From IMG/VR virus record IMGVR_UViG_3300022929_000074, positions 1 to 38,570 of that record: a DNA stretch of 38,570 bases; one strand, written 5' to 3'. The translations under genes and the position numbers were made by a program. Each line of letters begins with the position of its first letter. The first letter of the stretch is position 1. This DNA is from a virus. This document shows, in pieces, positions 1 to 38,570 of the stretch. Under the pieces are notes generated by a model. The model saw only the letters and a list, made by a program, of their open reading frames with translations. It was not told where the DNA came from and made no database searches.

Positions 1-112
1 CAGGGGTATCAGAAATAGAAACCGTAGGTGTGTTCGTAAGAGTAACCGCAGGAGTATCAGAAACCGTAGGTGTTGGTGTTGGCGTTAACGGAGCGGTACA
101 ACAACTACCCTC
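1..112. repeat. Degenerate direct repeats encoding a PT-rich linker
   Basis: Short direct repeats (tatcagaaa, then accgtaggtgt) occur twice, near 7-31 and 53-71, followed by ggtgttggtgttggcg. On the minus strand they encode Ser/Asp/Thr-Pro-Val and TPTPT units in the fibre-like gene. They look like coding repeats, not a mobile or CRISPR element. Confidence 0.55.
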
Positions 113-1771
113 ACTACGTGAACTTTCAAGACCATCAGTAATTTCATCATCACCCATATAGTAATATAAGAATGAATTAAAAATTTGAGTTCTTAATGCA
201 CAAACAGCGCTTGTATATGTTCCCGCAGAACTAAACTCTTCAAAGGTCGGTGAACCGTCACAAAGATTGTAATATAAGTAAACCTTTCCATCTTGACTTG
301 GGTCAGAATTACCTGAAGCATTATCAATGTCCGTTTGACTAATTTCTACATCAATATACTTACAAGTACACGGAGTCTCACTTGGAGTAGGTGTTGGATT
401 AGGAGTATCACTAACCGACGGAGTCAAACTTATCGTAGGTGTTGGAGTTGGAGTGACGGGTACCTGACATATCGCATCATTACATCCACCAGGAACATCA
501 GTTGCAGATGACGTTGGTGACGGACTAAAAGTAATATTTGACGGTTGTTCACCCACCGCAACGTAACAAGTATTAGGAACATTTGCAATATTTTCTAATT
601 TGTAAGTGTTACCCCCTGAAGGTGGTGCACCAAATGAATTCTGCCATTCTTGTTGAGTAACACGATAAATATTAGTATCACTACCATCACAAGGGTCAAA
701 GTAGTAATATGCAACACACGGAGTTTCACCAGTACAATTATTACAAGGAATTTCACCTGTTACAGTATAAGTACCTGTTAATACACCGTTAGTGGTGTAA
801 CCCGTTTCAATCATGGTAGGGTAACCAGCACATTCACCATTAATTGTAGTACCAGTAGCAAACGTGTTACCACCCATAATATTTCCACCTAAGGTAGTCG
901 CCGTGAATATAAATACAGTATCATCACAACACGACTCAGCACTATATGTGGGTATATCACCACCAGATGAACTACATGCAACACAGTTATCATATTCTTC
1001 AACAGTAATATCTGCAGTTTCACCAGTATAAGGTCTAAAACAAATATCACCAGGTGTGAAACATAAATTATAATTTGTTTTATATGCCTTGTTTTGGTCC
1101 AAAGCATCTCCATCGATTTTTACAGTCGCAATATCATAACTACATAACGATTCTGATTCAGTTAAAATATACGTATACCCATCCGCATTAGTATTATAAT
1201 ATGAAATAGCACTAGTCGCACTAAAAGGAATAAGATTATCACCACAAGGATTTACGACAGTATTAGTATTAACATCCAGATATGTTAAACTTCCTTGAAT
1301 CCATGTCCAAAATTCAGTACTACCGGCACTAGCAAAAGACCATCCAGTTAGATAATGATTACCACTACTGTCTATTCGAGAAGCGTCAGCATCGACAGTA
1401 TATGCAATATCATCAAAATAAACGTTACCATTTAGATTTAGAAGATAATTTTGTTTATAAACGTTAACCAACGGGAAAGTAGCAATATCCATCCCTGTCG
1501 GCGTAAAAGCAAGACTTGATTGACCTAACTGTTCATTATCTTTAATAACATAATCAACTGACTGTGAAGGAGTTTGACCGTCATAGTCAATCGACCACAT
1601 ACGATGTTTGAAAAAGTTCCAATAGGTTTCAGTACCACCAGTGGCTAGTTGTATTCTACTATCATTAGGATAACCCGTTAACCCTGTATCCCATTTAATA
1701 TAATACGTGTCACCTGTGTACAACGACGCGGCACTTGTCCTTTGTGTTATAGTAAAGTAATAACTAGCCAT
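1..1771 (-). CDS. Cysteine-rich tail fibre/adhesin-like protein, partial (C-terminus outside window)
   Basis: The minus-strand frame is open from an ATG at 1771 to the left edge, giving at least 590 residues. The start overlaps the stop of the preceding gene by one base (TAATG), which fits translational coupling. Roughly the first 250 residues look like a compact structural domain beginning MASYYFTITQR. From about residue 250 the protein becomes rich in Cys, Gly and Tyr, with C-x-x-C and CC pairs. Two Thr/Pro/Ser-rich linkers (TPTPT-type) sit near residues 432-468 and 553-590, separating modules that each contain a Tyr-rich stretch followed by a CDGS motif. Modular Cys-rich domains joined by PT linkers at the end of a baseplate operon suggest a receptor-binding fibre or adhesin. 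I do not recognise a named family, so the role is inferred from position and composition. Confidence 0.7.
   Translation of the reverse strand, partial: MASYYFTITQRTSAASLYTGDTYYIKWDTGLTGYPNDSRIQLATGGTETYWNFFKHRMWSIDYDGQTPSQSVDYVIKDNEQLGQSSLAFTPTGMDIATFPLVNVYKQNYLLNLNGNVYFDDIAYTVDADASRIDSSGNHYLTGWSFASAGSTEFWTWIQGSLTYLDVNTNTVVNPCGDNLIPFSATSAISYYNTNADGYTYILTESESLCSYDIATVKIDGDALDQNKAYKTNYNLCFTPGDICFRPYTGETADITVEEYDNCVACSSSGGDIPTYSAESCCDDTVFIFTATTLGGNIMGGNTFATGTTINGECAGYPTMIETGYTTNGVLTGTYTVTGEIPCNNCTGETPCVAYYYFDPCDGSDTNIYRVTQQEWQNSFGAPPSGGNTYKLENIANVPNTCYVAVGEQPSNITFSPSPTSSATDVPGGCNDAICQVPVTPTPTPTISLTPSVSDTPNPTPTPSETPCTCKYIDVEISQTDIDNASGNSDPSQDGKVYLYYNLCDGSPTFEEFSSAGTYTSAVCALRTQIFNSFLYYYMGDDEITDGLESSRSEGSCCTAPLTPTPTPTVSDTPAVTLTNTPTVSISDTP
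367..474. repeat. Second PT-rich linker repeat in the fibre-like gene
   Basis: A second block of repeated ggagtaggtgttgg and gtaggtgttggagttgg units encodes Thr-Pro dipeptides on the minus strand, at about residues 432-468 of the partial fibre protein. It resembles the block at 1-112 and separates two cysteine-containing modules. Confidence 0.5.
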
Positions 1772-4707
1772 TATCCACAGTTAATTGTTATGTTTATACC
1801 CACGTTCAAGGTGATTGTCTTATTAGTAAATGTAGGGTCACATCCCGTATTACTAAATGTAATGGTATTACCATTTATAGTGTAACTCATACCATCTTGA
1901 TATAAATACTGGAAGTATGCAATTGCCGCATTCAACCAATCACTATTCGATGGTGAAGCTTGGTTACCATAACCTGTGTAGAATTTCTGTTGGACCAGTA
2001 TATTGGAATCTAATCTTAAATCTATATACCACTCAGATAAAACTGAGTTCAAATCACATTGTGAAGTAGTATACCCACTCGAAGCAACCACAGATGTTAG
2101 TTGTTGACTTAATATCTGACCAAATGAAGATGACGGATATAAATTACAATCCACCGTCTGTTTAGAACAGTTGTAATTCCATAACGGACCTTCAATCTCA
2201 CAAGGAACACAATCCACCACAACAATATCACAACCCCTCTGCACACGGTATACGTGTTTTTGTTGGTGAAATACTGAGTTTTCCATCTTCTGACCACCCG
2301 ACCATAATGTAGATGCAGGTATCACCTGCTCAACCAACCTCATCCAATAATCACCAATACCATTAGTGTAGTCAATCATCTTTTGGTAGGTGTATTTGTT
2401 GGATGGAATGTTCACATCTTGCTCCGATGTTAAGTATTTCCAATATAATGATGATAACGTTGGGTAACCCGTCGCAGTTTGTCTGTTACGAACGTTAATC
2501 ATATTCTTATAGAACGATTGAGCAAAATCAAAGAATGATTTTTCCTTCGGTCTCGGGTCAATCACTGTCCAATCCACACCACCTGGTGTTGGATATGGCG
2601 ATGTAAGACCTGTTGCAGGAATTGGGTAACCTCTGTCTCTACTCATTTGCCACACATCATAAGTCAGACCCTGACCCATGTTCATAAACAGTTCAATATT
2701 CTTTCTGTTTAATACTAATCTCTCATCTGTGACATTATAGTTAGATGTAAACTCACCAGTTCCTCTTCTAATTCCCACACTTTGGTCTGTCCACGATTTT
2801 TTGTTGTCCTTAACAGAAACCAAATCATAACCCAAAGACATATTTGGGAAATCACGGAATTTCTCGAAATATTTCTCACCATATGTGTATGGTTCCAATG
2901 ATGTTTGGATATTTGGATTAGAACCCGTGAAGTTTGAGTTAACAACATCAATAGTTTCATTGGCTCTGTGTTGTGGAGTCTGTTCAAACCACCCTGAACC
3001 CATTTCAAAGTAGTAAGAATCTGTTGGAGATACCACCGATGGGTAACCCTCGTCATCCATAGGGTAATCACCTCTAACTTCTTGAGTAAATGTGGTAATC
3101 GACTGTGGTGTAAACGCAGTATAGGTCTCACCTTTAATTTTATACGTGGTATTTTGGTTTAATACTGGAAGAATCTCCAATTTTGTACCACCACTTAACT
3201 CAGCAAGTTGTTTATCAAATTCGGCAAGGTTAATTGGTCCATCAGCCATGTAAACGGTCTCATTAAATTCAACCAACGCTTTCGGAGCACCAATCATTCT
3301 CATAATATACTCAATACCCGCTCTCGTTCCCTTAGATTTGTAGAGGTATCCTGAGTTGATGATGAGTTTTCTGTAATATTCGTAATCTAATTCCTGTGGT
3401 GTCTTGTCTCTTGTCTGACCAGGATAAATTGATTGGTTCTTCGTACCAAACACCGCAGTTAAAAAGTCTTCCTCAGTGATTGGTGACATATTTGTATCAA
3501 AACCTAAGGTCTGAGCCAAGTTTTTAAGTAACACTGATGGAATATCGTTCTTCGGATTGTAGTTTACGTTGTTGATGTAAGCCAATCCATCAATAAACTT
3601 CTTAGTTTCATCAAAACTTCTACCGTAAATCTGTAGGACCTTATCCATCTTTTGGTCACCAGTGTCAAAATCGTGGAATGCACCTGTCACCAAGAATCTA
3701 CTGATAAGGTTGGTCTTATACCTATCCATTACCAAAGAAATCTCATTGATTTTTTCAAGGTAATTGTCGTAACCAACCGTTGAAATGTCTAAGTTCCACA
3801 ACCCTAAGATTGGCCATGTGATATTTTCAACTGAAGTGTAGTAATTTCCATTGTTATCCTCTCTCGGAACTCTAAACAACGCAGTATATTTAGGTGTTAC
3901 CAACCTATTCAATAAGAATTTCTCCACCTCATCAAATGAATCTTGGAAAATCTCTTCAGTGTAGAACTTATTAGGTCTTAATATAATATTTTCAACCGAT
4001 GAAGATGCAGAACCAAACGGTTTACCCTGAACAGTAACAGTCAACGTACCGGCAGACAACGATGTTGAAGGTTCAAAGTCCTGAACCTTATATTCTGTCT
4101 CACCAGTACTCACAAATAGTGAATATCTAAGGAACATTCTCGTTAAGTTCCTGTATGGCGAAGTCTCCATTGGTCTTAGAGACATATTTCTATCGGCATT
4201 TACACTATAATCAATGTCGAATGGGTTCTTAATCCTCGTAACATCAATATCAAAGGTAGTTTCATCCTCAACAGAATCATAAGAAACATTTGTCACCGTA
4301 CTTGCTGTGGTATAGTCAGTAAAAATCTTATCAACCTCTAACGCCGCAGGGAAAAAGTTGATGATTCTCGTAATCGAAGCAGATAACCTCTTTTGTAATG
4401 AACCATAATAAGAGAAATTGGTAACAACAGAAACATCATAATTAGGGTAAACACCAAAGTTACGAGCCCATATCTTCTTTGCCTCCTCCATATTTTCCAA
4501 ATCCATGTTTTCCAACGTGAAAGGATTGGAGAATACACCCGTATTAAAGGTTCTGTTAACCTTCTCTACAATAGAAGTAGTAAACTCGAAGTTACCTTGT
4601 GTTAAACCTCCACCATCAACAAGCTGAAACCCCACCAAGTCTGGTGAGAATGTTTCTGCTCCTGAAGGGGGTGCTGGTGGGTAACGATATTTCTTTTTAC
4701 TCGCCAT
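1771..4707 (-). CDS. Baseplate/tail protein, gpI/gp7-like, 978 aa
   Basis: This is probably a baseplate wedge or tail-end structural protein. Residues about 325-480 are helical. They end in a YKSKGT-x-x-G-I-E-Y motif followed by MIGAP, which resembles the 'KGT...l..lG' ending of P2 gpI-type tail proteins and related wedge proteins; the match is by eye. The last ~160 residues are cysteine-rich (CDIVVVDCVPC, then further Cys pairs), unlike the rest. The N-terminus has a short basic, Pro-rich start (MASKKKYRYPPAPP). The ATG at 4707 overlaps the previous gene's stop as TAATG, and its own stop overlaps the fibre-like gene the same way. T4 places gp7 after gp6; here five other genes lie between them. 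Structural assignment is fairly secure, the exact homology less so. Confidence 0.65.
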   Translation of the reverse strand: MASKKKYRYPPAPPSGAETFSPDLVGFQLVDGGGLTQGNFEFTTSIVEKVNRTFNTGVFSNPFTLENMDLENMEEAKKIWARNFGVYPNYDVSVVTNFSYYGSLQKRLSASITRIINFFPAALEVDKIFTDYTTASTVTNVSYDSVEDETTFDIDVTRIKNPFDIDYSVNADRNMSLRPMETSPYRNLTRMFLRYSLFVSTGETEYKVQDFEPSTSLSAGTLTVTVQGKPFGSASSSVENIILRPNKFYTEEIFQDSFDEVEKFLLNRLVTPKYTALFRVPREDNNGNYYTSVENITWPILGLWNLDISTVGYDNYLEKINEISLVMDRYKTNLISRFLVTGAFHDFDTGDQKMDKVLQIYGRSFDETKKFIDGLAYINNVNYNPKNDIPSVLLKNLAQTLGFDTNMSPITEEDFLTAVFGTKNQSIYPGQTRDKTPQELDYEYYRKLIINSGYLYKSKGTRAGIEYIMRMIGAPKALVEFNETVYMADGPINLAEFDKQLAELSGGTKLEILPVLNQNTTYKIKGETYTAFTPQSITTFTQEVRGDYPMDDEGYPSVVSPTDSYYFEMGSGWFEQTPQHRANETIDVVNSNFTGSNPNIQTSLEPYTYGEKYFEKFRDFPNMSLGYDLVSVKDNKKSWTDQSVGIRRGTGEFTSNYNVTDERLVLNRKNIELFMNMGQGLTYDVWQMSRDRGYPIPATGLTSPYPTPGGVDWTVIDPRPKEKSFFDFAQSFYKNMINVRNRQTATGYPTLSSLYWKYLTSEQDVNIPSNKYTYQKMIDYTNGIGDYWMRLVEQVIPASTLWSGGQKMENSVFHQQKHVYRVQRGCDIVVVDCVPCEIEGPLWNYNCSKQTVDCNLYPSSSFGQILSQQLTSVVASSGYTTSQCDLNSVLSEWYIDLRLDSNILVQQKFYTGYGNQASPSNSDWLNAAIAYFQYLYQDGMSYTINGNTITFSNTGCDPTFTNKTITLNVGINITINCG

Positions 4708-6698: not shown

Positions 6699-7501
6699 TA
6701 CGGGTTTACATATTCATAAAACTTTATTGGGTTGGCTTGTGTACCGATTCTAACCCCATTCAAATCGTACATTTCATATTCATAATTAGTATAGTCTAAT
6801 CGTATTTGTGTAAAGAAGTTGTCAGCCTTATTAAAATTAAACCTATTATTAAAATTAGATTGTGGTTGAGTCATCATCCTTGTAAAGTCACCCGTCTTTC
6901 CATTGAAAAACTTAACTGACATATAAAACTCATCCAAATTGATGTAAGACCTATCACTTAACCAATACACAAAGAACCCTTCCTTATCACCAATGTAGTC
7001 CAACGTATAATTTGGTATTCTTATGTCAACCACATTTGGAACTGTTGGTGTACCAATGTCAACAGATATAGTATCACCCTGGTATGTTGGGATTACCACC
7101 GTAAAGTATATTTGTTGTTTTTGGATATCTTTGGTATCATAGAAATCCAACTTAAAGAAACTATTTTTGAATGAATTGGCGTAATAATGAATTTCACCAT
7201 TATTAAATCCAGCACCCGTATAACTATTAACCCATTGATTTGATGTTGCACCTGTAACATCAATGTTATTAGGTAAGAAATAAAACTCATAGTTTATACT
7301 CGATGCGGTAAGACCATACATCTTATGGTCAAATCTCGTCACCTCAAAATCTTCCGTTGGGTTGATAACTAATTCAACCACCTCTTCTTCGTAAGCGTCG
7401 ATAGCGTCATCACGACCCACAACATCCCACATACTTTCGATAGGAATCTGTAATTGTCTTTCAACACCTCTATCAGCAAATCTATATTTATTCACAATCA
7501 T
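6698..7501 (-). CDS. Unrecognised structural protein, 267 aa
   Basis: I do not recognise the family. The protein starts MIVNKYRFADRG, is rich in aromatic residues and Asn, and looks beta-rich, as is usual for tail fibre or baseplate parts. I chose the ATG at 7501; the frame can be extended one codon to a TTG at 7504, but ATG is the better start. With that start it overlaps the end of the previous gene by 14 bases. Its stop overlaps the next start as TAATG. I see no cysteine motif, membrane segment or enzyme signature. Position within the baseplate operon suggests a virion component. Confidence 0.6.
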   Translation of the reverse strand: MIVNKYRFADRGVERQLQIPIESMWDVVGRDDAIDAYEEEVVELVINPTEDFEVTRFDHKMYGLTASSINYEFYFLPNNIDVTGATSNQWVNSYTGAGFNNGEIHYYANSFKNSFFKLDFYDTKDIQKQQIYFTVVIPTYQGDTISVDIGTPTVPNVVDIRIPNYTLDYIGDKEGFFVYWLSDRSYINLDEFYMSVKFFNGKTGDFTRMMTQPQSNFNNRFNFNKADNFFTQIRLDYTNYEYEMYDLNGVRIGTQANPIKFYEYVNP

Positions 7502-9188
7502 CAATTAATGGTTGAGTTATCACACCTAAACCGTAGTTTAGTGTTCTCTGAGGCTGTACCTGTAAGAATGTAATTTCTTTGAATGGATAATGAGCACCAT
7601 TTAAGAATGGATGGTCAACACCAACACCCGTCTCATCTATGAAACCATAAGGGTATAAGTCCCTCCATCTCCATTGACCTTCATAATCCGAGTAGAAAGC
7701 GTAATTTGGAATATAGTCAACATCTTCAGGGTTACCCACCTCCACATATGGTGAGAAGTCTCTAACCTGAATCTTATGATGAGGATAATACAAATACCCT
7801 GACGGTAATACCATTGTACTATCATCTTGGAAAATTACCCCATTGAAACTGTACTTATGTAACATCGGTGACACCACATACTCTTCCATTTCAAAATCAT
7901 TCCATTCACAAAAGTCACCCATAATCTCATCACCTTCGTGTAGGTCTTCATTGTAATAGAATGTCTGATTATTTTTTTGGTAACTATTAAAAGGTATATT
8001 ATCTCTATTGTTAAAGTTGTCTTGCTTCCACCATTGGTCAACCTCTAATGAAAGACAATTGAACTCCCAACCAACATTCATAGCTGAAATTGTTCTACCA
8101 TAAGGTTTGTTGAACCAACCCACATAACCTTTATTAATAATTGTTACATAAAGTTCCGTTAATGGTCTTTCTTGATTGTCCTTATATTTTGATATGTCAA
8201 TCTGTTTTTCAAACGTATATGAAACAACACTACTACCATTTCTTGTTGATGTCCTTTGAACATTGTTTGGTGTCAATGCCGAATATTCCAATTTGGTATC
8301 CGTTGAGAATGGTGTATTTTCGAAACCCATTCTTGCCATGTTGTAATCTTTAACCTCAGTTAATATCTTATGTTTCCTAACATAATACTTTGAAGTTGTT
8401 TCTTCGGCGTTGTCTTTATTGATGACTCTCTTAAGTGTTCCACTAACACCGTCACCAAAAGTAGTTCCTGTATATCCCAAATTATAAATTGAAAATACTT
8501 TACCACTACTATCGTAATCTTCATCACCCAACTCAAAAACCTGAAAGTAAGACTCACCATTATAATCAAATGATAATTTCACATATTCACCATTACTTAA
8601 GTTGTGATTACCAGCACAATAGAACGTAATTAAATCCTTACCGTTAACCCTCCTGTTTTTGATTGCAAAAGGTATACCATCACTTACTGTAAAAACTGTA
8701 GTAGCACTTAGCTCTTCATTCTTATAAGTCATACTCTGACCCGTAACATTGTCAGAAACATATGATAGATAAGCCGTCCAATTATATGTTGTTGAACTCT
8801 TTGGTACAAAGTCTATATGACCTGCAGGTACTGACTTTCTTAAAAAACTAAACTCATCAGATTGTGGATATCCTCTCCAAACATTAGTATTAACGGATTT
8901 AACTGCGTCTATATAGTATAGATTGTTTTGAAATGGTGTGTAAGTAGTTTTACCTGAAACTATATTATCAAATAGATTTGTAATCTTACCAGTGACCCTA
9001 ATCTTATCAGAACCCTGTCTTTCTTTATTGAACCTCTCAGCAAGGTTTAAGATGACTGTACGGTCACCTTCAACCATCAACCTTTTCTCACCCTCAAACG
9101 TAACATCCAAAGTATTGTCTAAGGTCGGAGCACCTTTATACTTTTTCTCACTAGGGACAATTCTTAAGTTGTTCGGTTCCTTACTCAT
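7488..9188 (-). CDS. Unrecognised structural protein, 566 aa
   Basis: This is a large beta-rich protein with many Tyr, Trp, Asn and Gly residues. It has no enzyme motif, signal peptide or membrane segment that I can see. The aromatic-rich second half (for example WGYP-like and YPHHKIQV stretches) resembles phage fibre or decoration proteins in composition only. The ATG at 9188 overlaps the TGA of the 1747-aa gene by four bases (ATGA), and its 3' end overlaps the following gene by 14 bases, so it belongs to the same co-translated baseplate operon. The specific function is unknown. Confidence 0.6.
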   Translation of the reverse strand: MSKEPNNLRIVPSEKKYKGAPTLDNTLDVTFEGEKRLMVEGDRTVILNLAERFNKERQGSDKIRVTGKITNLFDNIVSGKTTYTPFQNNLYYIDAVKSVNTNVWRGYPQSDEFSFLRKSVPAGHIDFVPKSSTTYNWTAYLSYVSDNVTGQSMTYKNEELSATTVFTVSDGIPFAIKNRRVNGKDLITFYCAGNHNLSNGEYVKLSFDYNGESYFQVFELGDEDYDSSGKVFSIYNLGYTGTTFGDGVSGTLKRVINKDNAEETTSKYYVRKHKILTEVKDYNMARMGFENTPFSTDTKLEYSALTPNNVQRTSTRNGSSVVSYTFEKQIDISKYKDNQERPLTELYVTIINKGYVGWFNKPYGRTISAMNVGWEFNCLSLEVDQWWKQDNFNNRDNIPFNSYQKNNQTFYYNEDLHEGDEIMGDFCEWNDFEMEEYVVSPMLHKYSFNGVIFQDDSTMVLPSGYLYYPHHKIQVRDFSPYVEVGNPEDVDYIPNYAFYSDYEGQWRWRDLYPYGFIDETGVGVDHPFLNGAHYPFKEITFLQVQPQRTLNYGLGVITQPLIDDCE

Positions 9189-12100
9189 AATTTCTCTTGA
9201 TTGAAGATAAATTTATCGATGAACCTATTCATAGAACTAGCACCCTTTCTTAAACCAAAGTAGAAGAAATATGGTGAACCTGCATGAATTACATTTCTAA
9301 ATGGATTAGGTTTAGCCGAAGTAGTTTCAATTTGATTGTTAACTATATTTGAATTGTAAATATAACCAGGTCTTTGTGTTGTCGGCTTATCCACATTCGT
9401 ACTAAACGTATCTTGAGACGTTAACCTATCTTCTGTTTGATATCTTACAGAACCAATACCATCTTGTGAATTCTTACTATACCAATCATTTTGTTGTGTA
9501 CCAAAAATAGTAGAACCCGTACTGATGATTTCCCATTTGTGGAATGGAACCTCTTGGTCTTGGTGTCCGTAGTTATCAACTAAGGTACTAGTTAACGTAT
9601 CTTGGAATGTGTATCTACCTGGACTAATCATATCTCTATTGATAGTATTCGCACTAAACAAAATACCTAACGTCGGGTCATCAACAACTTTACCATTCGG
9701 TAATATTCTTGTTTCACCTATATATCTAATTTCAGAATCTGAATAATTTGTCCCCAAATAAGGTATCACACCAAACTCAGAATTAATACTTAATAACTGA
9801 GCCACATCACCATCTAATCTTTGATTAGGTCTTGAGAATAATTTTTGAATTGAACCATCACCAAAACCTATAACACTCTCCCAAAAACCTGATGCGGTTA
9901 ACCTACTAATCGCAAATAACTGTAGGACATCAGAAGTATCTTTATATGATGAAGTAGAAATCTTATCTACAATATATCCTTGGAACTCAGGGTTATAACA
10001 AATTTCCTTAGTGAATAAGTCTCTCGGTCCTAAATCCATAATAGTTGTAGGGTTCCCTAAGAACTTCTTATTAGCACCGTTAGACCTTCCCAAAATATTT
10101 GTTTGTGGTGTATTATCTCTACCAATAAACCTTTCACCTAAATTGTTATTAGGGTTATAAGGGGATGCTCTATAGTAGAACGAATTAGTAACTAATTGAT
10201 AAACTGCAGTATCTTTACAGTACACATACTCAGGATTTGAAGTGAATGTAGTTTCATTAATATTGTTACCATATACATTATCCTTTTGGAATGCATACAT
10301 ATATAACGAACCGTTAATCCAGTTATTAACAAATGTTAAACTAACCACATTATTACATAATCCAAACATCATTCTGAATCTTGCTCTCCATTCCGCAATA
10401 GATTGGAAATCCTCAGCAATTGCAAAGTTTTTAAGAAGTAGGTAATAACAACCACCTTGTAATTTTTCAATCTCTTTTTTATCACTTAAGTAATAACATC
10501 TATCGTCTTTGGCTCGAACACCAATTGTTTCACCATTACCTGAGTAACACTCTAATGGAACCATACCTTGACATGAGAAAGTTTGACTAATTTGTGTTGC
10601 AATCGCACCAGCATCTTCGTTAAAATCATCTGAACCGTCACCTATCACATCTAAACCAACATTAAATGATTCTGAAGTAGTTCCATCATCTGTAAGTGTA
10701 TATATGGCAAATGCTTTGTTTTGATGTAATACCATTCGGTTCTGTGTAACATCTGATGTTGGTAACCTATCAGTCCTCATAACAATCTTTTGATTATTAC
10801 TCATATTGATAACACTATTTGGAGTATTAATATGATATACAGAAGACCAATAAAGGAAGTTTTCATTATTTTGAGCACCCATCATACCAACGCCCTCGAC
10901 AACCATATCTTCCTCATAATGATATTTCCAATCATTATTATTTTCAACCATCTTATCCCAGTTTTGTGTGTTCCAAGACGCATTCTTAACAGATACGGCC
11001 ATATTAAAGGTATCTACACAAGGTTTCTGGTAACTAGCGTTAACGATGTAATGTCTATTATTTGCACCGTAAGCAGAATAATATTGATGATTCTTAGTGG
11101 TAAATGATTGATAATCACTATTACTAGGTGTAAAAGAATAAGAATTATAGAATATTCGTTGCCCCATAACAACATTATTGTTATTACCAAAATTAGCATG
11201 TATTGGAAGTCTCCAATCATTCGTAGCACCATATGGTTGGATTGGAATATTCAGTAGGTAATTACCTCTAACTTTTCTCGTACCATTAAATGCACCATAT
11301 CCATACAAATACGATAAATCATATTCTATATCTTGACGAGGTGTATGTACATCAACACCTCTAACTAAGAAAATAACACCCAAGTTTTCCCAATCACTAT
11401 TAAGTTTAATATTGGGAACATTCTTTTCAAACCAATCATTATTAGTACTACCGGGTTTACTATACGGAGGATTATTAAACTTCCAAGGATATTCTTCAGG
11501 ATTTGGATTATATAACACTGCATTTTTCTTCACATGCTGCCACCCAAATATTGTAAACCTACCTAAGGTTTTGTTGACCGAATCACCATATTTAGCAGTT
11601 CCTTTACCATTTGCATCACATAAGTTTTCAAACTCTGATAATGTATTACCCGTAATAACTTGGTAGTATTCTACATCACTAGGAAAATCATATGTAGTAT
11701 TAGAGGTGTCACCTGTGATAATATAACTTGTTGTCTGTGTATTTGTATTAGTATCCATGTAGGTAACCGTAATACTCTGTTGACCTCCACCTTGTTGTGC
11801 TGTTGTAAATATTGTTGAACCTGTAGTGTTACCTGATATATTAGGGTCTAATGATTTATTAATATCTTGGAATGTAACAATCTCACCAGCTTGGAAAGAA
11901 CTTACAACACCACTATCCACAACTAACATCATAACATTATCTGTATGGAAACCATTATTAGTATTAGGATTAACCTTAACCTTAATTCTATTTGTCCCAC
12001 CATTCGCAGCATGATGATAATTAGCCTTCGCATTAAACAAATTAAACCTCTCAGTTAAGGGTAAATCATAAGACCATGTTTCTCTATTTGTCATCGGATT

Positions 12101-14428
12101 ATCCGCCCCTTTTATAAAAGGTGTTCTTGCAAAACTTGAACCAGGACCATACACATCATTTCCTGACATTGTCATTTGGAAACCATATTGGAATTTTTGC
12201 CATTGTTCAATCTCTTCATTTCTAACACCCACCAATTCATTGAAGAATGTATAGTCTGTAGTATCAGCTAAGATACTGGTGTTTTCAACAATCTCAGGTA
12301 AATCATCACCTTCTGGCTCACCAGCCTTCTTACTTTCACAAGCACATGCTTGACAATCAGGATATGATATATTAGGTAATGGGATTGCAGGTATCGGACA
12401 ATTTTTTGGTAACTTAACCGATTGATAGTTTGGACATGGTCTTTTGAATAGACCAAAAGTCAACGCTTTTATAACATAACAGATGAAAATAATGACTGTA
12501 AGAATTACCTTTAATATTAAATCCAATAACCATCTCAAATATTTGTATAAGGTACAGACAACGTGACCAACAACCGTAATTACAAATAACAACGGCATGA
12601 ACAATGTCATCACAATGTTTACAATGAAGAATAACAAGTCAAAGTTTCTAACCCCATCATTCGTTGGAAACCTATTTGTCTCACTTTCACAACCTCTATC
12701 CAATATCTCCTTAATACCTAAGAACCTTGCACGACCATAACCCTGCCTATACTCATCAATCATCATTGATGGTGTATAAACCTTATTATAGTTCATCAAA
12801 TAGAATGAATCCTCACAGTTAATCGCAGCTTGCTTGTCAGCATATTCGTCCCAATCTAAAGAGAACGCATATGACTTTTGGAATTGGATATAATCATAAT
12901 CATACTGTTTTACCTCAACAGTAACATTCTGACCCACAGTCTGTGGTGGATTACCTATCTCTGTAGTAATCTTAGTAACCTCAATGGTTAACGTACCACC
13001 GTTAGGGAACTCAATCCATTTCTCATTTCTAACAACACCATTGACCGTTAATTTAAGTTCTTCCAAATCCTTATTATAAGGAATAGTAACAGTTGTGTTT
13101 GAAGGTATTACAATACTCTTCGTCTCCACAATCTGACTCTGATTAACAAAATCAACATTAATAGTTGTTTCAGTGTCTTTCGTTGCCGGGTCAACACCCG
13201 AATTTTGAACTGAACCATTCCACCCATATTCTCTAATCTGTGGAACAATAAAGTTGGCTCTTTGGACTTCACCGACAATAGGGAAGAACTGGTCTCCCTC
13301 AAATGGTGGTCCGTTCTCCTCTGACTGATACTTAACCTTAAAACGATACTTACCCTTTGTCGGAATACCAATACTTGGGTCGTTAGACAATACTATCTCA
13401 CCAAACTCGTTAGTAACCACATAGTCTAAGTTCATTGGAACATCAGTAACAAAGGCTCCATCCTCATCAATAACCTTTCCTGAGTTAGGTAAACTGTATT
13501 GTTCCAAGACTGGGTCACCATTCTCATCAACGTTAATAGTTTGTCTAACCGCTAAGATTTCACCAGGACCAGTAACTAAGTTACAAATATCACCCTGTTC
13601 AGTTCTCGGCTTACAATTAGGTTTGATGGGTCTACTATCAGCATCACTGAAGATAGAACCCATAAACACGGCTGTCGGTTGAATCTCAATACCCAACTCT
13701 CTTAAATCAAAGTCGGCTCTCGTTATACCAATGTTACATAAATCTTCCTGACCCCAAAACGAAGCAACATCAATGTCCTGAACTGAATTGATAATCTGTG
13801 GTAACTCATCTAAGTTAGAAGACGCCTTGAAGTTAGTACCATCAAACTGTTCCTCAACACCCATGTTCATTCTTATCAAATCCTGAGGTCTCAAAGAGAA
13901 ACAACCCATATCCGATAAGTCCATATCCAATACCAACTTCTGATTACCCAATGGAACACCAGTAATCATAAAGTCACCCGAATCATTTGTCTTTACAGTG
14001 AATTTGTAATACTTTTCATAGATTTCCAACACCTCATTACGAGTAAGAACGTCAGACCTTGAAGGGAATGTACCTGTTGGATTGTGCCCACCATACTGTT
14101 GTTCATAAGGAAGAAGGTTGTATCGATACCCATCTTCATTCTTATCAGTTGGTTTCTTATAAGGGTATAATGTTGAAATAACAGGGTCTTCGAGGTCCAT
14201 TTCCTCAATAGGTATGAATATGGAAACTCTTGCGTTTGGAACACCAAAACCACTGTTAGCAACCACTCTACCCACAACCACACCGTAGTCAGCACAGAAT
14301 CTAGAATACACGTCTTCCTGCCTTAACTTCAAAGATAAAATTTCAAGGAAGTCAAAATCTTGTTCGACATTAACACGAATGTTTTGGTCTACCCCTAATT
14401 TTGTACGTATTCTATATGACTTAGACAT
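9185..14428 (-). CDS. Giant tail/baseplate-associated protein with CnaB-like domain and internal hydrophobic segment, 1747 aa
   Basis: The N-terminal region (about residues 50-172) resembles a carboxypeptidase-regulatory/CnaB-type beta-sandwich: VVVGRVVANSGFGVPNARVSIF, with a later T-x-x-S-G-D-F-x-I-x-G-V-P-x-G. Near the middle two long hydrophobic stretches (about 596-627 and 631-661) look like transmembrane helices. A basic, Cys/Pro-rich segment follows (664-697, ending CQACAC). The remaining ~1050 residues are Asn/Tyr-rich and beta-like, typical of virion fibres. The ATG at 14428 follows a 75-base intergenic region containing an AT palindrome. Its TGA overlaps the next ATG by four bases. 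A membrane-like segment inside a structural protein is unusual and could act during membrane penetration, but that is inference. Confidence 0.65.
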   Translation of the reverse strand: MSKSYRIRTKLGVDQNIRVNVEQDFDFLEILSLKLRQEDVYSRFCADYGVVVGRVVANSGFGVPNARVSIFIPIEEMDLEDPVISTLYPYKKPTDKNEDGYRYNLLPYEQQYGGHNPTGTFPSRSDVLTRNEVLEIYEKYYKFTVKTNDSGDFMITGVPLGNQKLVLDMDLSDMGCFSLRPQDLIRMNMGVEEQFDGTNFKASSNLDELPQIINSVQDIDVASFWGQEDLCNIGITRADFDLRELGIEIQPTAVFMGSIFSDADSRPIKPNCKPRTEQGDICNLVTGPGEILAVRQTINVDENGDPVLEQYSLPNSGKVIDEDGAFVTDVPMNLDYVVTNEFGEIVLSNDPSIGIPTKGKYRFKVKYQSEENGPPFEGDQFFPIVGEVQRANFIVPQIREYGWNGSVQNSGVDPATKDTETTINVDFVNQSQIVETKSIVIPSNTTVTIPYNKDLEELKLTVNGVVRNEKWIEFPNGGTLTIEVTKITTEIGNPPQTVGQNVTVEVKQYDYDYIQFQKSYAFSLDWDEYADKQAAINCEDSFYLMNYNKVYTPSMMIDEYRQGYGRARFLGIKEILDRGCESETNRFPTNDGVRNFDLLFFIVNIVMTLFMPLLFVITVVGHVVCTLYKYLRWLLDLILKVILTVIIFICYVIKALTFGLFKRPCPNYQSVKLPKNCPIPAIPLPNISYPDCQACACESKKAGEPEGDDLPEIVENTSILADTTDYTFFNELVGVRNEEIEQWQKFQYGFQMTMSGNDVYGPGSSFARTPFIKGADNPMTNRETWSYDLPLTERFNLFNAKANYHHAANGGTNRIKVKVNPNTNNGFHTDNVMMLVVDSGVVSSFQAGEIVTFQDINKSLDPNISGNTTGSTIFTTAQQGGGQQSITVTYMDTNTNTQTTSYIITGDTSNTTYDFPSDVEYYQVITGNTLSEFENLCDANGKGTAKYGDSVNKTLGRFTIFGWQHVKKNAVLYNPNPEEYPWKFNNPPYSKPGSTNNDWFEKNVPNIKLNSDWENLGVIFLVRGVDVHTPRQDIEYDLSYLYGYGAFNGTRKVRGNYLLNIPIQPYGATNDWRLPIHANFGNNNNVVMGQRIFYNSYSFTPSNSDYQSFTTKNHQYYSAYGANNRHYIVNASYQKPCVDTFNMAVSVKNASWNTQNWDKMVENNNDWKYHYEEDMVVEGVGMMGAQNNENFLYWSSVYHINTPNSVINMSNNQKIVMRTDRLPTSDVTQNRMVLHQNKAFAIYTLTDDGTTSESFNVGLDVIGDGSDDFNEDAGAIATQISQTFSCQGMVPLECYSGNGETIGVRAKDDRCYYLSDKKEIEKLQGGCYYLLLKNFAIAEDFQSIAEWRARFRMMFGLCNNVVSLTFVNNWINGSLYMYAFQKDNVYGNNINETTFTSNPEYVYCKDTAVYQLVTNSFYYRASPYNPNNNLGERFIGRDNTPQTNILGRSNGANKKFLGNPTTIMDLGPRDLFTKEICYNPEFQGYIVDKISTSSYKDTSDVLQLFAISRLTASGFWESVIGFGDGSIQKLFSRPNQRLDGDVAQLLSINSEFGVIPYLGTNYSDSEIRYIGETRILPNGKVVDDPTLGILFSANTINRDMISPGRYTFQDTLTSTLVDNYGHQDQEVPFHKWEIISTGSTIFGTQQNDWYSKNSQDGIGSVRYQTEDRLTSQDTFSTNVDKPTTQRPGYIYNSNIVNNQIETTSAKPNPFRNVIHAGSPYFFYFGLRKGASSMNRFIDKFIFNQEKL

Positions 14429-14503: not shown

Positions 14504-16342
14504 TTACTTGTAGTCAACGTTTTTAAGGTTCTTCACTCTGACCTTAATATCCTTCTCAGGAAATCTTACCTGATATATTTGTGAAGGTTCCGCAAAGATT
14601 GTTTTGTCGACGAATTGAATCTCTTTTGTTGCGTCGTCTGAGTATCTTTGTGATGTTTCTGAAGACGAATATTGACCACCAACTTTATTATAAACTTTGA
14701 TATCTGTTAAAGATATAACACCAGCAGTGTCCTGAATAATTCTTTCAATCTCAGAGATGAATACATTTTGACCCATCGTTCTGTCTGTCGGAGCCATAAA
14801 CTTAGAAACCTCATCAATAATCTTTGTGATTACAGTTCCCTGATTCTGTCCTGAATCTAAAACAACTGAGATATCATATTCTAAATCAATAACCTGACCT
14901 ACATTTACCGATATGTAATCGTTAATCATTCTATACTTAGAAAGATAGTTGGCAATATTTTGTTTCAATGTATTAGAAACCGTCTGAGTCAAACTACCAT
15001 TTGAATCATATGATAATACATTTATATTAATTTTGTTGTCCTTTTCTGTAATCGCTGTCTTAGCAGGTGCTCCGTACTTACCTGGCATCTTTCTAATCAA
15101 CGCATTGTAATCATTAATAGTAACCGCTCTGTTTTGAGAAGCAAAATTAAATGTCACCATATTTCTCACTTCCTCAATTGAAGGTTGGTTAGCACCTCCG
15201 ATAGCCGCAGTAATGTTATTAACCGTAAGTGAATTAATTACCGTTTGGTTGTTTGTATTAGACGGTCCATTAACAAAGAAGTTTACAGTACCTACCTGAT
15301 TGATAGCATTCACACCAATGTTTGATTGTGAACCACCACCAATTCTATATTTAACAAATAATGTTGTGTTGGCTTTTACTGTTCTACCTAAACCAATATT
15401 GTTTTGGTATTCCTGAATTCTCATTGTTACACCGTTTCTCGCAAAATCTGCCAATTGTTCGTCAGGTGTTGTGGTACCACCACCAAACTGAACTTTCATG
15501 AACCCCTGAGGTGTATACTCTGTTATGAATCTATTTTCAGTATCAATGTACTTACCCACCTTAATACCTGGTTGGTCTGAAGGTTTTGTAGAATCTTCAA
15601 TGAATACTGTCGGTTCAGCTAATGAATCCACTTCATACCATCTGTCTTTAGCATTAACAAACTCAGAATACGTTGGTGTGGATTGGAATGATGTACCATC
15701 TTTTTGAATGATGTCTACAACCTCTAATACATTTTGTTCTGGTAAGAAGAACTCAAAGAATGGTTTAACGTCATTAGGGTTGATTGTCTTTTTGAATACC
15801 TTAGTCAAACCGTTAACTACAACTTCTCTTTTTGTGATTGTGTAGTTAATCAACACATTGTTCGAATCAAAGTTTGGAATCTTTGTTCTGTTAGGGAAAC
15901 CTTCATTGTTGTATTGTGAAGCGAAATCAATATCATAAACATTCTCAAATACCTGACCAGCTCCAATCACTTGTGAACCCGCTCTTAAAATCCCTAAGTA
16001 ACGTGAATCCTCTTGGTCACCTAAAGCAGGTACGGTAATTGAAAAATCAACAATAGCAACTGAAGGTCTATTACCTGGTATCTTCAAACCATAAGTTCTG
16101 GCAATATTAAAAATAGATGAACGTTGTTGAGCATATTGTAATACAGTTTCCTGAATACTTCTATCAATGTGGTAATTAAGATTATCACCAATCGCAGCAT
16201 TCAAGTCCATCAATACCGAATAAACGGCAGCATCATTGAAGTTATCAATTAATTCAGGGTAATACTGTTTAGTATAATTTACGAGGTCCTGTCTTAACCC
16301 TTCAAAGTCTCTTTCCGTGTATGAAATTTTTCTACTTGCCAT
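14504..16342 (-). CDS. 6: Baseplate wedge protein gp6-like (baseplate J family), 612 aa
   Basis: The N-terminus is characteristic of T4 gp6: I-S-Y-T-E-R-D-F-E-G-L-R, then YYPELIDNFNDAA, then GDNLNYHIDRS and E-T-V-L-Q-Y-A-Q-Q-R near residues 8-95. Length is close to T4 gp6 (660 aa). In T4, gp6 dimers form the iris-like ring of the baseplate inner wedge, together with gp25, gp53 and gp7. The ATG at 16342 lies 6 bases after the stop of the gp25-like gene, matching the conserved gp25-gp6 neighbourhood. The gene ends TAA TAA. Confidence is high. Confidence 0.93.
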   Translation of the reverse strand: MASRKISYTERDFEGLRQDLVNYTKQYYPELIDNFNDAAVYSVLMDLNAAIGDNLNYHIDRSIQETVLQYAQQRSSIFNIARTYGLKIPGNRPSVAIVDFSITVPALGDQEDSRYLGILRAGSQVIGAGQVFENVYDIDFASQYNNEGFPNRTKIPNFDSNNVLINYTITKREVVVNGLTKVFKKTINPNDVKPFFEFFLPEQNVLEVVDIIQKDGTSFQSTPTYSEFVNAKDRWYEVDSLAEPTVFIEDSTKPSDQPGIKVGKYIDTENRFITEYTPQGFMKVQFGGGTTTPDEQLADFARNGVTMRIQEYQNNIGLGRTVKANTTLFVKYRIGGGSQSNIGVNAINQVGTVNFFVNGPSNTNNQTVINSLTVNNITAAIGGANQPSIEEVRNMVTFNFASQNRAVTINDYNALIRKMPGKYGAPAKTAITEKDNKININVLSYDSNGSLTQTVSNTLKQNIANYLSKYRMINDYISVNVGQVIDLEYDISVVLDSGQNQGTVITKIIDEVSKFMAPTDRTMGQNVFISEIERIIQDTAGVISLTDIKVYNKVGGQYSSSETSQRYSDDATKEIQFVDKTIFAEPSQIYQVRFPEKDIKVRVKNLKNVDYK

Positions 16343-16348
16343 CTACTA

Positions 16349-16813
16349 TTAAATATTGATAATTATGAAATCTTTGGTTTGGAAAGTACTATCTGTAATG
16401 GTATAATCAATCCTTAATTTTGCCGTGTATTCTTCAACACCACGACCAGGTACTCTATATATACCACCAATACCCAACTTATCCATATTTAATTCACCCT
16501 GAGCTTCTAAATCTTCTAAGTAAGGTGTAATTGTTATTTCATTAACTGTAAGGTTTGGAATGTATTTTTCAATAGAATCTCTGATATCCGCTTTGATTGC
16601 CTCGAATGTTGTACCATCCATAGGTTCAAAAATAAATTCATAAATTCTCGTACCAAAATCAGGTAAATAATATCTACTACCTTTCCTTGTTAAGATAAGG
16701 TGTAATAAATCAGTCCTTATCTCTTCGTCAGTAGTCTGAGAAAGAGAAAGATATTTTCCTTCTTTACTATCTTGAAAAGGGAAATTGATACCGTATGTTT
16801 TACCGTCTGCCAT
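16349..16813 (-). CDS. 25: Baseplate wedge protein gp25-like (GPW/gp25 family), 154 aa
   Basis: The protein shows the GPW/gp25 pattern: GINFPFQ near residue 8, then DEEIRTDLLHLILTRKGSR at about 28-46, then LPDFGTRIYEFIFEP at about 49-63. The family forms the sheath-initiating part of contractile baseplates and sits on gp6/gp53. It directly precedes the gp6 homologue with a 6-base gap. The start follows a TATTTATAGACA stretch and has no clear Shine-Dalgarno. It is the first gene after the terminator closing the nrd cassette. Confidence 0.95.
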   Translation of the reverse strand: MADGKTYGINFPFQDSKEGKYLSLSQTTDEEIRTDLLHLILTRKGSRYYLPDFGTRIYEFIFEPMDGTTFEAIKADIRDSIEKYIPNLTVNEITITPYLEDLEAQGELNMDKLGIGGIYRVPGRGVEEYTAKLRIDYTITDSTFQTKDFIIINI

Positions 16814-37698: not shown

Positions 37699-38570
37699 TT
37701 AATAAGTGGTACCTTGACGAGCCATTTCTTGTTGAATCATCTGAGTAAGATTGGATAAGGCAGTTGGGTCGGTTTGTAATGATTGTAAAGACATACCACC
37801 ACCCTGTAATTGAATGGTACCAGTGTGATTTACATTAAGGTCATCAAATGTACCTCTAACAACTTCAACCTTCATTGGGTCGGTATTAGTAACCTTTGCA
37901 ACATTAACAGGAATGATGGCACTTGGTACTACACCTGAGCCTGAACCCGAACCTGAATTAGAACCACCTAAACCAGATACATTCGCAAGGGCATTTCTAG
38001 CTCTACTTCTAGCATTTGTCAAATCAGCACTCAAATCAGCTTTGGCAATTTTTGCATATGCATTAACCGCGGCACCATAGAAAGCATCACCAATCCCATC
38101 AACACCACTGGTTGCAAAATGTTCAAATACACTTGTAAATCCCTCCACACCTTCTTTGAATATTGTATCTACCGTACCAAATACTTTTATCATATTTTTC
38201 TCGTTTATAACACTACCTATAACCTTACTTATTTCTGTTGCCGCAGATAAAGTAGTTTCCTCAATTTTTCCATATTTAGCAGAACCAGCAATCTCAGCTG
38301 AAACTCTCCTTGCTGGTTCTTCTAATGTTTTTTGGATTACTTCTAATACAGTCAATTGTTCTTTAGCAACATCTAAGGCTGACATATTTGCAGTCTCCGA
38401 ACGTTCTCTAAGTTCCTTTATTTGGTCTTTTGTTAAGTCCGTTGCAGAAACTAATTCAGTAAACTTTTTACCATCTTCGTCCTCACGCTGGAAAGTAAAT
38501 TTTAACTCACCACCATCGAACTGACCGATATTTGCCAACATTTCTTTGGTCTCATCATCATAACCACCTA
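37699..38570 (-). CDS. Probable tail tape measure protein, C-terminal part (N-terminus outside window)
   Basis: The frame stays open through the right edge (GGYDDETKE precedes the first Met in the window), so only the last ~289 residues are present. The segment is helical and alanine-rich, with a Gly/Ser linker (GGSNSGSGSGSG) followed by a short beta-like tail (NHTGTIQLQGGG, then DPTALSNLTQMIQQEMARQ). A low-complexity helical protein ending this way, directly upstream of distal-tail and hub genes, fits the C-terminus of a tape measure protein, which sets tail length. Without the N-terminal bulk this is a contextual call. Confidence 0.5.
   Translation of the reverse strand, partial: GGYDDETKEMLANIGQFDGGELKFTFQREDEDGKKFTELVSATDLTKDQIKELRERSETANMSALDVAKEQLTVLEVIQKTLEEPARRVSAEIAGSAKYGKIEETTLSAATEISKVIGSVINEKNMIKVFGTVDTIFKEGVEGFTSVFEHFATSGVDGIGDAFYGAAVNAYAKIAKADLSADLTNARSRARNALANVSGLGGSNSGSGSGSGVVPSAIIPVNVAKVTNTDPMKVEVVRGTFDDLNVNHTGTIQLQGGGMSLQSLQTDPTALSNLTQMIQQEMARQGTTY

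Follow-up and report, generated by a model that had tools for sequence, protein, structure and literature searches.

A conserved internal hydrophobic block in a large baseplate-operon protein of contractile-tailed phages, a candidate membrane-insertion module

Introduction

What is a long, membrane-like stretch doing in the middle of a protein encoded among phage baseplate genes? The membrane-penetrating function of a tail is usually assigned to the tape-measure protein, a helical, tail-length protein whose gene lies between the tube and hub genes. The question arises from a 38.6-kb virus record (the whole stretch of DNA that we analyzed, hereafter "the window"), in which the gene for a 1747-aa protein comes after genes for gp25-like and gp6/J-like wedge proteins (Table 1). 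The original prediction for this locus, made before any database search, had proposed that residues 596–661 of the large protein form two membrane-spanning helices. Here we examine that segment, its conservation and its possible functions.

Table 1. Features of the locus discussed in the text (window coordinates; KD, Kyte–Doolittle hydropathy)
Feature	Position	Strand	Basis and remarks
1747-aa baseplate-operon protein	9185..14428	(-)	ORF and translation; hundreds of IMG/VR relatives
N-terminal part, residues 1–590, predicted beta-sandwich domains; best-conserved part of the family	12659..14428	(-)	AlphaFold, Foldseek; 57–67% pairwise identity (sampled blocks)
NRFPTND conserved motif ahead of the block, residues 585–591	12656..12676	(-)	Pattern N.FP..[DE], used as anchor
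Hydrophobic block, residues 593–663	12440..12652	(-)	KD and Hessa scans, family scan, AlphaFold (one helix, 598–656)
First hydrophobic helix (TM1), residues 598–627, with polar stripe	12548..12637	(-)	Column statistics, 100-degree periodicity
LPNISYPDCQACAC motif, residues 684–697; C692, C695 and C697 near-invariant	12338..12379	(-)	Family alignment
C-terminal part, residues 700–1747, beta-rich; conserved C1286, C1294, C1311, C1327 and C1358	9188..12331	(-)	AlphaFold, alignment
gp6/J-like baseplate wedge gene, directly upstream	14504..16342	(-)	PHROG_219, PF04865; synteny 133/135
gp25-like wedge gene	16349..16813	(-)	PF04965, PHROG_261
566-aa protein, conserved immediate downstream neighbor	7488..9188	(-)	96/98 loci with room
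978-aa protein, candidate second wedge component	1771..4707	(-)	hhalign 95%, E 2.4e-8 to proteins of immuto-like phages
C-terminal end of probable tape-measure protein, open at window edge	37699..38541	(-)	Upstream of the 1534-aa protein; maximum KD 1.02

Results

Genomic Context

The locus has the components of a contractile-tailed baseplate module: gp25 and gp6 are present in the window, and a sheath-like match was found in five of six longer relatives (E from 8.4e-6 to 9.4e-8, all below Pfam's own cut-off). The tail modules of three relatives contain a sheath, a tube, a tape-measure candidate of 612–616 aa, a protein like the 1534-aa one of the window, gp53 and hub-like proteins. Among the 135 loci with enough upstream sequence, gp6 immediately precedes the gene of interest in 133. 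The two exceptions have an insert between the two genes, coding for a 398-aa protein that is TnpB-like by eye (L111, 2392–3640) or for a protein of 308 aa (L131, 6210–7260); the latter appears, again by eye, lipase/hydrolase-like, with hydrophobic segments at its N-terminus. The genes for the 268-, 360-, 301- and 978-aa proteins are present in 94, 82, 70 and 66 loci, respectively, many of the loci being short. The gene for the 1747-aa protein lies within a conserved operon of baseplate genes from contractile-tailed phages.

The host of this widespread group of uncultured phages is likely a member of the Bacteroidota, given that none of the 17 window genes checked had a Shine–Dalgarno-like site (the upstream regions are A/T-rich), that the G+C content is 35.5% and that the nearest cultured gp6 relatives include a Flavobacterium phage. 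At one end of the window (2–1771) lies a 590-aa open-ended ORF with repeated Pro/Thr/Ser tracts of the TPTPT/SPTPT type in its C-terminal part.

For the 1747-aa protein itself, profile searches retrieved no Pfam or PHROG family and a profile-based sequence search no PDB relative. Searching 50,697 phage records by tblastn, with two divergent members also used as queries, gave no match, and no cellular or prophage copies were found in the genome-contig database. BFVD held one clear relative, an uncharacterised protein of Myoviridae sp. ctPuP5 (37% identical). Relatives in IMG/VR accounted for at least 541 and at least 596 of the 600 matches listed for each of two pattern scans.

The Hydrophobic Block and Its Conservation

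Residues 593–663 are the sole stretch of the protein in which the 19-residue KD mean exceeds 1.6. The peak value is 2.67, and a 19-residue window reaching it occurred in 0.28% of composition-preserving shuffles of the protein. The segment originally predicted to be hydrophobic (596–661) has a mean KD of 1.94, with eight D/E/K/R/N/Q/H among its 66 residues, as against an average of 0.57 and a top value of 1.37 for the best 66-residue window in 5000 such shuffles; this part of the prediction was thus borne out. On the Hessa biological scale the minimum, −1.61, falls at residue 599. The segment that follows, 664–697, had been described as basic and Cys/Pro-rich, and the translation agrees, the basic character being mild.

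We examined the site in 153 sequences, 152 of which cover it (that of the window and 151 from IMG/VR, with near-identical relatives among them); the remaining one is broken by an early stop. The hydrophobic block was found at the same place in all 152. It is bracketed by the motifs N.FP..[DE] and YP.C..C.C in 133 of the 153 sequences, and 109 of these 133 motif-anchored segments are distinct. For the other 19 the block was located by scan, as one or both strict motifs are missing or the sequence ends before the second. These observations, together with the shuffles, rule out chance hydrophobicity, and a frameshift or ORF artefact is ruled out by the full-length ORF kept in many relatives. In one relative (L067, 9001–13725) the frame stays open for 371 codons and is then interrupted, by either a frameshift or an assembly error.

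Pairwise identity is 55–67% in the flanks (sampled N-terminal blocks and Cys motif) and drops within the block, to 33% over residues 598–627 (TM1) and 22% over 628–663 (TM2). Yet charged residues occupy just 19 of 3270 TM1 positions (0.58%) in the 109 distinct sequences, so that it is hydrophobicity and not sequence that is conserved in the block. The spacing between the NxFPxND and YPxCxxCxC motifs ranges from 61 to 155 aa across members, and in some members the C-terminal half contains a further hydrophobic segment rich in Gly and Ala (L130, L146, L149 and L155, about 1029–1085; L151, 1006–1060). Such variable spacing and additional segments would be expected of a lipid-facing region rather than a tightly packed one.

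Thirteen cysteines are near-invariant (at least 96% of the aligned family), at residues 45, 231, 282, 538, 580, 692, 695, 697, 1286, 1294, 1311, 1327 and 1358. The C-x2-C-x-C after the helix belongs to this set; metal binding or disulphides are possible roles.

The segment had also been considered unusual for a tail protein, and the tail proteins that we scored agree with this. The maximum KD was at most 1.46 for the other tail proteins of the window and at most 1.57 for those of three relatives (sheath, tube, 247-aa, 612–616-aa, 1534-like and hub-like proteins), the 612–616-aa tape-measure candidates of the three relatives giving 0.81–1.20. The tape-measure piece at the window edge, a partial protein comprising the C-terminal end, had no hydrophobic segment; its sequence link to the 612–616-aa proteins was not significant. 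For T4, the corresponding maxima were 2.20 (the tape measure gp29), 2.07 (gp7), 1.71 (gp18) and 1.66 (gp11). We rejected the identification of the 1747-aa protein as a tape measure, in view of its gene's location after gp6 and of the separate 612–616-aa candidate that occupies that place in relatives.

Structure Models

Two separate AlphaFold runs were carried out on overlapping halves of the protein. Together the two models supported beta-rich regions on either side of the block, as originally predicted, but where two helices had been proposed, both drew a single continuous helix of 59 residues (598–656) and no hairpin, with pLDDT of 84–94 over most of the block in the second model. At the level of secondary structure the block appeared as a long helix, and the outcome named as refuting in the original prediction, a block buried in the core of some soluble domain, was not seen. 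Foldseek searches yielded nothing significant with the C-terminal model; with the N-terminal one they returned only generic beta-sandwich pilins and adhesins (Ig-like domains) and a poorly superposed lambda tail-fibre match.

In the first model the linker after the helix was poorly defined, its pLDDT falling below 50 at residues 689–694 and 704–712. A low-confidence, Pro/Cys-rich linker at this position might be taken to indicate processing, whereby cleavage near the Cys/Pro segment would leave only the beta-rich parts in the virion, the hydrophobic part being discarded or left in the host. We regard this as very improbable, considering that the linker was more ordered in the second model and that the family conserves the two halves, along with the motifs, within a single ORF.

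The family-averaged hydrophobicity of residues 598–627 showed a 100-degree period (p = 0.0056). Four polar positions lie on one narrow face of TM1: 604 (N/S), 608 (T/N/Q/S), 611 (T/Q) and 622 (H, 87%). This layout fits what is expected for a helix in a membrane bundle, although it does not amount to proof. When the same 100-degree test was applied to conservation in the family alignment, residues 598–627 gave no helical moment, hence conservation cannot discriminate a membrane helix from a buried one.

Comparison with T4 gp7

The wedge of T4 gp7 and P2 gpI has as its hallmark a (gp6)2–gp7 heterotrimer with a three-helix bundle and a trifurcation domain. T4 gp7 (phrog_964, Pfam Gp7 domains) resembles the 1747-aa protein in being large, in having a gene that immediately follows gp6 among the baseplate genes and in carrying a TM-like stretch; it is annotated with a predicted integral membrane domain, and the stretch (residues 879–907) reaches a KD of 2.07. 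Nevertheless, hhalign probabilities of 0.30% and 0.10% led us to reject the identification of the 1747-aa protein as gp7. A better candidate for the second wedge component is the 978-aa neighbor, because it matches the proteins of 1265, 1336 and 1400 aa found at the gp7/gpI position of immuto-like phages (hhalign 95%, E 2.4e-8); its direct match to gp7 was not significant.

The TM-like stretch of gp7, with the motif RFVHPxGFGF, is kept in four relatives (V09, AP1, 44RR2.8t and P-KP2; KD 1.74–2.01, identity 34–55%). Since gp7 is nonetheless present in solved structure entries, a baseplate protein may carry a TM-like stretch without necessarily inserting into a membrane. By analogy, the block of the 1747-aa protein could be a structural helix, internal or between subunits in the assembled baseplate, that never meets a membrane; the confident continuous helix drawn by AlphaFold agrees with this, and the polar stripe, being a/d-like, could be an oligomer interface. 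This is the main rival to membrane insertion, but we consider it rather unlikely. The gp7 stretch is about 29 aa long and weaker, compared with about 70 aa here, and, unlike a packed core, the block varies in length and in apparent number of segments between conserved flanks, while its identity collapses.

Discussion

The reading that we favor, to which we assign a probability of about one half, is that the block serves at infection as a membrane-insertion module which the baseplate protein otherwise keeps sequestered. A membrane-active module fits the family-wide presence of the block, the retention of hydrophobicity over sequence, the baseplate-operon position and the rarity of such segments among tail proteins; the presence of the protein in virions, the sequestration, the insertion and the function as channel or anchor are steps that we infer. 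The original prediction, in which the segment might stay hidden until contact and then insert as a DNA channel, is supported in part, as to its membrane-active character. The 1747-aa protein would be a large, lineage-specific baseplate-region component of a contractile-tailed phage group. Its module would comprise an obligatory, polar-striped first hydrophobic helix plus a variable number of additional segments, and would be closed by the Cys motif. Kept covered in the virion, it would be released upon contact or contraction, and would then either anchor the baseplate in the host envelope or open the envelope.

The mode of action would be like that of the hydrophobic segment in the tape measure pb2 of phage T5 (PMC10038345). 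A long internal TM-like segment is a trait that the 1747-aa protein shares with membrane-inserting phage tail proteins such as pb2. However, pb2 is a siphophage tape measure located inside the tube, whereas here the protein with the block is encoded in a baseplate operon, and the relatives' tape-measure candidates have no such block. As regards sequestration, T6SS effectors with TM domains and Eag chaperones travel on an aqueous contractile device with those domains shielded before delivery (PMC7773334), although they differ in being loaded on the spike. Several points count against an insertion module: we identified no shielding partner, a 59-residue helix (some 88 Å at 1.5 Å per residue) is long for a single membrane pass, and conservation along TM1 lacks a helical moment; T4 gp7 stands as a warning case. 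Among the results listed, our literature search retrieved no known TM baseplate protein of Bacteroidota phages and no discussion of the TM-like stretch of gp7.

A membrane contact could also occur in the producing cell, where the protein, sitting in the inner membrane, would organize baseplate assembly rather than act in penetration. There is a precedent in Cis13 of the cyanobacterial thylakoid-anchored contractile injection system (tCIS), a baseplate-attached fibre with TM helices and a deletion phenotype (PMC8894136). Cis13 is likewise a baseplate-associated protein of a contractile device (PMC8894136), the likeness being one of description, but it forms a small trimer resembling a fibre, and its anchorage is in the membrane of the producing cell. 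Hydrophobic segments with no evident shielding gene nearby would suit such an assembly-time role. Still, we deem it improbable, because a 590-residue beta-rich domain stands ahead of the helix, and a seemingly variable number of segments between conserved flanks would be hard to square with one unchanging topology across a single membrane.

If the block is indeed an insertion module, we may speculate, quite tentatively, that in this phage group a baseplate protein, and not the tape measure, carries out membrane penetration. Several copies would each release a polar-striped hydrophobic helix, with extra ones in some members, and around the tip of the tail tube these would bundle to form a channel through the envelope or an anchor in it.

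Once the sheath of a contractile phage has contracted, its DNA has yet to cross the bacterial membranes, a step that is still not well understood. An obligatory, predicted membrane module in a widespread baseplate family offers a concrete protein, segment and set of residues for testing. The family is new to the 50,697 phage records searched, and it suggests a division of labor that may be unlike the tape-measure model.
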